Below are positions 224-1,612 of a DNA stretch of 63,505 nt, piece by piece. Location: positions 1 through 63,505 of the forward strand of contig JAJZKM010000003.1 in assembly GCA_021804085.1 (NCBI GenBank), given 5' to 3'. Within the stretch, counting starts at the first letter, position 1, and each line of letters opens with the position of its first letter. Position numbers and translations under genes: made by a program. The DNA is from a bacterium. GTDB taxonomy: Bacteria; Patescibacteriota; Saccharimonadia; Saccharimonadales; UBA4665. The notes under the pieces were generated by a model. It ran no database searches, was not told where the DNA came from, and worked only from the letters and a program-made list of their open reading frames with translations.

Positions 224-637
224 GTGCTAGCACAATGTGTCCAGTATATTGGTAGCCTGACACTACGCCATAGCTCTGAGCTGACGCACGAAGCTTTGCT
301 CGATGCCCTGAGCAAACACCCCAGTCCTGCAATATTACATAGTGACCAAGGCAGTGAGTACCTAAGCTACAAACACCAGGAGCTCTGTGACAAGATGGAG
401 ATTCAACTCAGTGCCAGTAACAAGGCTAGTCCTTGGCAGAATGGTTTCATGGAACGTTGGTTTGGTGGCTTTAAACGGGAGATGGGCAACCTTACTCAAC
501 ATCAAGATATATCCCAACTACACGAAGCCATTGTCATGCAGATTTACTACTACAACCACCGACGCATTCACAATGCTTTAGGCATGAGCCCAGCGGCTTA
601 CGCCGCTACGCTCCAAGCGAGACAAACTGTTCGCTAA
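224..637 (+). pseudogene. IS3-family transposase OrfB, C-terminal remnant
   Basis: The 137 residues match the second half of an IS3-family integrase core (rve). The second catalytic Asp lies in HSDQGSEY and the Glu in PWQNGFMERWFGGFKREM, followed by the family ending YYNHRRIHNALGMSPAAYA. The N-terminal half with the first catalytic Asp is missing, and an in-frame stop lies just upstream (206-208), so it cannot be active. The GTG start in the track is only the first start-like codon after the break. Base composition is richer in G+C than the flanks, consistent with a recent arrival followed by decay. Confidence 0.85.
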
Positions 638-660: not shown

Positions 661-840
661 AGGTTCACTATTATTGAATTTTCAGTAAACATATAATTTT
701 TACTCCTGAAAGGTGCTAATTTTCGAAGTTTTAAATTTTGATAAACCTAAAGTAACGATCTATAACGTCAGCTAGTATATGTATGTTGTGCTGTTTCGGT
801 TCTGTTTAGCTAGCTCTCCTAATAATGTTATTATATGAGC

Positions 841-1149
841 ATGGATTCATGTAACTGCTGCACACCAAACTCTGAAACCACCAAGCAGATTGAGAAGCTT
901 GGCCCTTTAATGAAGGTTATAGGCGAGGATAGTCGTCTTAGAATACTTTGCGCATTGCAGTGTAGCGACCACTGCGTCTGCGAACTAGAGGAGCACACCA
1001 AGTTATCACAAAGCCTTATATCTCATCATCTAAAAGACTTAAAGACTACTAATATGGTTAGTGATGCTAAAAAAGGCCAGAAAGTATATTACTCTCTGAC
1101 CGATTTTGGCAGTAATGTTATGAAGTCGTTGCTGACTATAAAAGCCTAG
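841..1149 (+). CDS. ArsR/SmtB-family metal-responsive repressor
   Basis: A winged-helix regulator of about 102 aa. The sequence runs through DSRLRILCALQ, then DHCVCEL, the CVC metal(loid) thiolate motif at the start of the recognition region in ArsR/CadC-type sensors, then the DNA-reading helix LSQSLISHHLKDLK and the beta wing KKGQKVYYSLTD. An N-terminal CNCC adds possible ligands. The track starts at 835, but a -10-like TATTAT occupies 829-834, which puts the transcript start at about 841, exactly at the second ATG; I take that as the start (leaderless). The gene converges on the small Cys-rich gene at 1160-1336, whose promoter carries a matching operator. The metal sensed is not predictable; As(III), Cd(II) or similar soft ions fit the thiolates. 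Confidence 0.88.
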   Translation: MDSCNCCTPNSETTKQIEKLGPLMKVIGEDSRLRILCALQCSDHCVCELEEHTKLSQSLISHHLKDLKTTNMVSDAKKGQKVYYSLTDFGSNVMKSLLTIKA

Positions 1150-1159
1150 TATTTAGAAC

Positions 1160-1336
1160 TTATTTATCTAGTTCCTCAAGAACTTCTTTTAACTCTTTTT
1201 CTAACCGATCTTTACGAGCTTCTAGGCTCTCGGAAGACTTAGAGCAAGAAAGACCACACTTACTGCAACAATCACATGGTTTCTTTTCAGCTTTCTTATC
1301 TTCGCAACTACATGGCTTTTTATCTAATGATTGCAT
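1160..1336 (-). CDS. Cysteine-rich 58-aa protein, putative metal binder (not in ORF track)
   Basis: The frame from ATG at 1336 to TAA at 1160 encodes 58 residues with seven cysteines in two clusters (CSCE and CDCCSKCGLSC), followed by a charged helical tail (SLEARKDRLEKELKEVLEEL) that looks like a short coiled coil. A Shine-Dalgarno-like TGAGGA lies 7 nt before the ATG, and a near-consensus promoter overlapped by an ArsR-type operator lies upstream. This resembles a metallothionein-like or metal-chaperone micro-protein, but I recognise no named family. Too short for the 60-aa track cut-off. Coding status is supported by SD, promoter and composition; metal binding is inference from the Cys clusters. 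Confidence 0.72.
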   Translation of the reverse strand: MQSLDKKPCSCEDKKAEKKPCDCCSKCGLSCSKSSESLEARKDRLEKELKEVLEELDK

Positions 1337-1371
1337 GATTATTCCTCATTTATCAATACTAATATTAAACA

Positions 1372-1415
1372 TGAACGCACATTCATATATTAATCACCGG
1401 CTTTTTGTTTGTCAA
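1372..1415 (-). promoter_or_regulatory. Sigma-70-type promoter with ArsR-type operator for the Cys-rich gene
   Basis: On the minus strand TTGACA (1415-1410) and TAATAT (1392-1387) are separated by exactly 17 bp. Immediately downstream, over the expected +1, lies TGAA-N6-TTCA (1385-1372), the core of SmtB/ArsR operators. The arrangement would let the repressor encoded at 841-1149 block initiation until it binds metal. Confidence 0.75.
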
Positions 1416-1459: not shown

Positions 1460-1612
1460 ATGGTAGAAAAACAGCTTTTCCAATGTTAGGTGTGTTGTTT
1501 GCGCTATGAAAACGAAGACATAGCAAAGAAGTGTGAAGCGTATTGCATAGAGCACAATGGTTGTAGTTTAGATATTACGAAACTTTCAGTGGAACGGATA
1601 ATCAGTTCTTAA
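1460..1612 (+). pseudogene. Second cysteine-rich small ORF, interrupted by an in-frame TAG
   Basis: ATG at 1460 opens MVEKQLFQC, then TAG at 1487-1489, then the same frame continues from GTG (1490) for 40 codons: VCCLRYENEDIAKKCEAYC, then a tail ending at TAA 1612. Read through, it would be a 50-aa protein with a Cys cluster (C-x-VCC) and CEAYC. The length and Cys spacing look like a real small protein damaged by one point mutation, or one that now starts at GTG 1490. I recall similar short Cys proteins from CPR genomes but cannot name a family. Confidence 0.4.

Follow-up and report, generated by a model that had tools for sequence, protein, structure and literature searches.

A convergent cassette of an ArsR/SmtB-type repressor and a small cysteine-rich peptide as a probable metal(loid)-buffering switch

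Introduction

A 58-aa open reading frame rich in Cys lies beside an ArsR-type repressor gene in the stretch of bacterial DNA analysed here (63,505 nucleotides, referred to as the window). Is the frame a gene, and do the two make up a complete metal switch? Control of metallothioneins by SmtB-family repressors through 12-2-12 dyads is established (PMC8790569). The initial annotation of the window had proposed a minimal switch of this kind, in which a tiny metal-binding peptide is the only output, and had noted no efflux pump in the window.

Genomes and sequence sets

The window is contig C8 of its source genome (652 kb, 26 contigs). Because this genome is 81% complete, gene absences from it are weak evidence. 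Homologues were compared across 149 related genomes; the family set held 93 genomes and the genus set 19. Four genomes carried the cassette described below: the window's own (G000), G007, G006 and G080, the last from another genus. The three named cassette records are MAGs, and so apparently is the genome that holds the window. Their isolate codes (TL1-5.bin107, FK5.bin11 and TL1-1.bin26) came from an ArsR search of genome contigs, which returned nothing beyond the three known cassettes. FK and TL are sample codes for the Fankou Pb/Zn mine and the Tongling pyrite mine (PMC7779479), and the fit of FK5 and TL1 to these codes suggests that the cassette MAGs came from the two mine sites.

Results

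The cysteine-rich open reading frame is a gene

The 58-aa frame is present as annotated (Table 1) and is a genuine gene. Homologues were found in three of the related genomes, G080 (72% identity, E 1e-21), G007 (67%, E 8e-21) and G006 (60%, E 2e-10), and the peptide occurred in 4 of the 93 family genomes. The gene was under purifying selection (NG86 dN 0.11-0.23, dS about 1 or saturated); substitutions were concentrated at third codon positions, second positions were seldom changed, and all length differences among homologues were multiples of three, i.e., in-frame indels. The start codon and ribosome site were kept in all four genomes. ATG-initiated frames of 40-90 aa with at least seven Cys were seen twice in the window, against 0.22 expected. 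The initial annotation had proposed looking for the peptide beside ArsR elsewhere, and this neighbourhood was found in all four genomes carrying either gene; the peptide and the close ArsR were present in the same four genomes and absent from all others of the 149 relatives. A lack of homologues and of a synonymous-site signal, which the initial annotation had named as counting against its proposal, was not what the comparison gave. A phylum sample of 380 genomes yielded the peptide in the window's own genome only, and searches of viral contigs and plasmids gave no match. Weak matches at L006-L013 and L086-L087 were rejected, those inspected being frames within other genes or frames with stops.

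All seven Cys noted initially were present in the window's peptide (7 of 58 residues, 12%), but only five of them (C9, C11, C21, C23 and C27; pattern CxC-N9-CDC-N3-C) were invariant in the alignment of the four homologues. CxC and CC motifs were both there; His, Phe, Trp, Tyr and a signal-like start were absent. The AF2 model placed a helix at residues 38-57 (pLDDT about 95) after a Cys head of low confidence. This helix comprised three conserved heptads (positions 38, 42, 45, 49, 52 and 56); all six positions were Leu or Ile in G006, and position 42 was Lys in the other homologues. No family model in Pfam, NCBIfam or PHROGs matched the peptide, the metallothionein models of Pfam and NCBIfam (PF02069 type) left it unmatched even at E 1-10, and a PDB profile search gave nothing but noise from coiled coils or antibodies (best E 0.04). 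A literature search found no paper describing such a Cys peptide in these bacteria.

Table 1. Features of the cassette and its flanks in window coordinates
Feature	Position	Strand	Details
IS3-family transposase remnant	224-637	+	Adjoins the cassette in the window
arsR -10 box, TATTAT	829-834	+	TATTAT or TATCAT in all four genomes
Second operator, ATGAGCATGGATTCAT	835-850	+	Overlaps arsR start codons, directly after the TATTAT box; kept in all four genomes
ArsR/SmtB-family repressor gene	835-1149	+	HTH_5, HTH_metalloreg; N-terminal CNCC and alpha-3 CVC
Terminator-like hairpin with T run	1075-1101	-	Antisense within arsR; candidate for the peptide transcript
Peptide gene, 58 aa, MQSLDKKPCSCEDKKAEKKPCDCCSKCGLSCSKSSESLEARKDRLEKELKEVLEELDK	1160-1336	-	Homologues, dN/dS, AF2 model
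Ribosome binding site, GAGGAA	1342-1347	-	Read from the sequence; GGAAAGG or AAAGGG in relatives
Peptide operator, ATGAATGTGCGTTCAT	1371-1386	-	ATGAA-N6-TTCAT; immediately follows the -10 box and covers the predicted +1; kept in all four genomes
Peptide -10 box, TAATAT	1387-1392	-	N17 spacer from TTGACA; promoter span 1415-1387
Peptide -35 box, TTGACA	1410-1415	-	Identical in all four genomes
Zinc-ribbon-like small gene remnant	1460-1612	+	Divergent from the peptide gene; a TAG at 1487-1489 interrupts the frame

The repressor has a putative thiolate metal site

The adjacent ArsR gene with its CVC motif, as initially annotated, scored above the cut-offs of both relevant profiles, with 55.9 bits for PF01022 (HTH_5; cut-off 22) and 79.8 for the metalloregulator model NF033788 (cut-off 55). 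It is convergent with the peptide gene, with 10 bp between them. C6, C8, C9, C47 and C49 were invariant among the four close homologues. The CVC motif aligned with that of CadC (PDB 1u2w; 32% identity over 77 aa), and the N-terminal Cys, which lie outside this BLAST alignment, are equivalent to those of CadC by position only. These residues point to an alpha-3N-type thiolate site made of Cys6/8/9 and Cys47/49. As summarised in PMC8790569, which cites Busenlehner et al. 2003, the alpha-3N site of CadC prefers Cd or Pb, and the likeness to CadC suggests Cd or Pb as the sensed ion.

Both genes carry an operator directly after the -10 box

The TTGACA-N17-TAATAT promoter, the dyad over the +1 and the SD sequence attributed to the peptide gene were all there (Table 1), the AGGA core of the last lying at 1346-1343 on the minus strand, 5-6 bases upstream of the ATG. 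The combined pattern TTGACA-N15-19-TAnnnT-operator occurred once in the window and in none of 60 dinucleotide shuffles. In G007 the peptide operator was a near-perfect longer palindrome (13 of 14 half-site pairs). The hairpin downstream had z scores of -6.4, -5.3 and -3.1 in three genomes and was absent in G006; it is likely the terminator of the peptide transcript.

The second operator lies at the start of arsR, which appears from this position to be autoregulated. A +1 seven bases past the TATTAT box would make the arsR message begin at ATG 841, and we infer a leaderless mRNA with its +1 near that base. ATG 841 is also the sole start shared by the four arsR copies, because codon 835 is CTG in G007, and it is probably the conserved start. 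The strict operator pattern was found at three places in the window's genome, namely the two cassette sites and C2:14808; the last was judged by eye to be ABC transporter coding sequence and was rejected as a further operator. Apart from the two cassette sites, non-coding DNA thus held no strict match, in keeping with the peptide as sole output. The regulatory anatomy drawn in the initial annotation is strongly supported; the annotation had missed the arsR operator, the mobility of the cassette and a broken zinc-ribbon gene beside it.

Relatives of the repressor keep the operator and change partners

ATGAA-N6-TTCAT or ATCAA-N6-TTGAT overlapped or preceded most arsR starts among ArsR relatives phylum-wide. 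At least 23 phylum loci matched all ten fixed operator bases, where a rough expectation is well under one. Within this ArsR clade, the operator at arsR is ancestral phylum-wide. The relatives were split by the two operator dialects at their arsR starts (L048-L076), and their recurrent N-terminus, M-N-M-x-S, is encoded by the ATGAA-N6-TTCAT operator sequence.

An ArsP_1 permease adjoined the ArsR relatives in 17 of 34 sampled loci (a motif-based label, confirmed by Pfam for L054), and thioredoxin-like MTH895/ArsE-family proteins were often present as well. Some of these thioredoxins had Cys-rich C-terminal tails (L054 1824-2120 and L073 1157-1447), that of L054 being DCCKDKDCDCNPGCC. A SLAC1-type channel was the partner in two genomes, G005 (confirmed by Pfam) and G009 (by motif). 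One operator with varied neighbours indicates that the lineage keeps its operator and changes its partner, and in the relatives the operator may control the ArsP, thioredoxin and SLAC1-type partners too. By analogy, the ArsP and ArsE neighbours suggest arsenic as the sensed ion.

Some of these neighbours would also suit a switch for thiol or sulfur stress, in which the ArsR Cys sense persulfide, sulfite or oxidants and the peptide buffers redox state or sulfane sulfur. ArsR relatives adjoin thioredoxin-like proteins and SLAC1-type channels, the repressor also matches TsoR- and BigR-type models below their cut-offs, and mine sediments, if they are the habitat, are sulfur-rich. However, the generic metalloregulator model alone passes its cut-off, CNCC plus CVC resembles the ligand arrangement of CadC, and the ArsP neighbours suggest a metal(loid) signal, so that we hold this alternative to be quite unlikely.

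The two operators bound a mobile cassette

Nucleotide homology of the window to the three other loci covered 824-1587, 829-1416 and 829-1391 (window coordinates). The part common to the four loci ran from operator to operator (about 824-1416, ~590 bases) and the flanks were unrelated, indicating a mobile cassette. It was present in 3 of the 19 genus genomes. The ArsR of G080, although from another genus, was 92% identical to that of the window, whereas the two other same-genus copies were 84 and 82% identical. The four peptide-linked ArsRs formed one clade in the ArsR tree (support 100/100), with the window, G080 and G007 joined apart from G006 (99/92). Lateral transfer of the cassette is the simplest reading of this pattern.

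The product of the broken zinc-ribbon-like gene follows the pattern FxCPxCGLxY...CEAYC...GCSLEITK, and an uninterrupted homologue adjoins the cassette in G080. In G007, a further relative of this gene (L077) immediately precedes an ArsP_1 permease gene, and a gene for a CsoR-like repressor lies nearby.

ArsP and P1B pumps are not tied to the cassette

The initial annotation had stated that no efflux pump is present. This stood for the window, where a search for ArsP_1 and P-type ATPases gave no match, but not for the rest of the genome, in which contig C7 carries a heavy-metal P1B ATPase that shows no N-terminal metal-binding domain. ArsP_1 (PF03773) was not found in G000, G006 and G080; the single ArsP_1 locus of G007 was unlinked to the cassette and lay beside a CsoR-like repressor. 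A tie of the cassette to an ArsP pump was rejected, as none was found in three of the four cassette genomes.

Small Cys carriers are known to serve pumps, and the peptide could be a metallochaperone that carries metal to a pump elsewhere, e.g., the C7 ATPase, which scores as a heavy-metal P1B pump, instead of storing it. We regard this as unlikely, because heavy-metal-type P-type ATPase matches were found in all 19 genus genomes (17 above the family cut-off) against three with the peptide, and the strict-pattern operator search found no operator at any pump gene. Occurring throughout the genus, the pump is not specific to cassette carriers; the genus-wide matches also indicate that the peptide is not the cell's sole metal protection.

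Discussion

The cassette is probably a two-gene metal(loid)-buffering switch that resembles SmtB/SmtA in its logic, with a peptide unrelated to SmtA. In the course of repressor binding, metal sensing, oligomerisation and sequestration that we infer, an ArsR dimer on the two near-identical operators, each directly after a -10 box, would block RNA polymerase at both genes. A thiophilic metal or As(III) entering the cell would bind the repressor, whereupon both promoters would open and the small cytosolic Cys peptide would be made. The five conserved Cys would bind metal, and the heptad tail would probably pair two or three copies of the peptide and so pool their thiolates. As free metal fell, the repressor would shut both promoters again. 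The peptide thus would probably mop up toxic metal. Its Cys count (five invariant) is low for a metallothionein and no metallothionein family matched it; these points, the small number of sequences (four) and the P1B ATPase elsewhere in the genome speak against a buffer. A bolder version, with a new class of metal-binding peptide whose coiled-coil tail brings several five-Cys heads together and which replaces the usual efflux pump in a ~590-bp mobile cassette, is tentative, and we rate its chances somewhat below even. On that version the cassette would rank with the smallest metal-tolerance units known that are self-contained and self-regulated.

The peptide co-occurs one-to-one with a single lineage of ArsR, and its short helical tail would suit contact with a protein. 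Both would also be expected if the peptide bound ArsR as a regulator or antirepressor and were not a bulk metal sink. Metal binding explains the conserved Cys pattern better, and no other ArsR target was seen for the peptide to release, making such a role very improbable.

The proposed switch has several features in common with SmtB-SmtA of Synechococcus and AzuR-NmtA of Anabaena (PMC8790569), namely an ArsR/SmtB repressor, a small Cys-rich output and an imperfect TGAA/TTCA-type inverted repeat in the promoter or close to it; the logic of a repressor-controlled small Cys protein is already known. Unlike in these systems, the peptide here lacks His and any detectable PF02069 homology, has fewer Cys and ends in a heptad tail. 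The two genes also converge, and the repressor belongs to the CVC (alpha-3N-like) type, whereas AzuR is of the alpha-5 type. CadC of the Staphylococcus plasmid pI258 shares the ArsR fold, the CVC of the alpha-3 region and N-terminal Cys, but is part of a cadmium efflux system according to its PDB molecule name, whereas the cassette has no linked pump. The ArsR-ArsP-ArsE modules of the same phylum (L048-L054) share the ArsR clade and the operator overlapping the arsR start; their neighbours are an ArsP permease and a thioredoxin-like protein in place of the free, convergent Cys peptide. The convergent, operator-bounded mobile layout appears to be new.

If the proposed switch is real, the undescribed peptide family would join the few known bacterial metallothionein types. 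Even ultra-small bacteria, with their reduced genomes, would then be seen to carry a whole metal switch that moves laterally and takes up fewer than 600 bases. The cassette is compact enough for testing whole and could act as a compact metal sensor. As one repressor lineage with one operator has different partners (ArsP permease, SLAC1-type channel, Cys peptide), its regulon should be predictable phylum-wide.

Other arrangements were observed among the ArsR relatives. The ArsR of G070 (L029 5261-5626, plus strand) had a Cys-rich tail of its own, STCSCQKCVCQNCAC, and the same operator at its start; a single protein here unites the sensor with a thiol tail. A fusion of DUF2703 and Thioredoxin_3 was found beside ArsR at L049 1812-2501 (by Pfam) and L050 783-1493 (by similarity), and it is possibly an undescribed metal(loid) or thiol protein.
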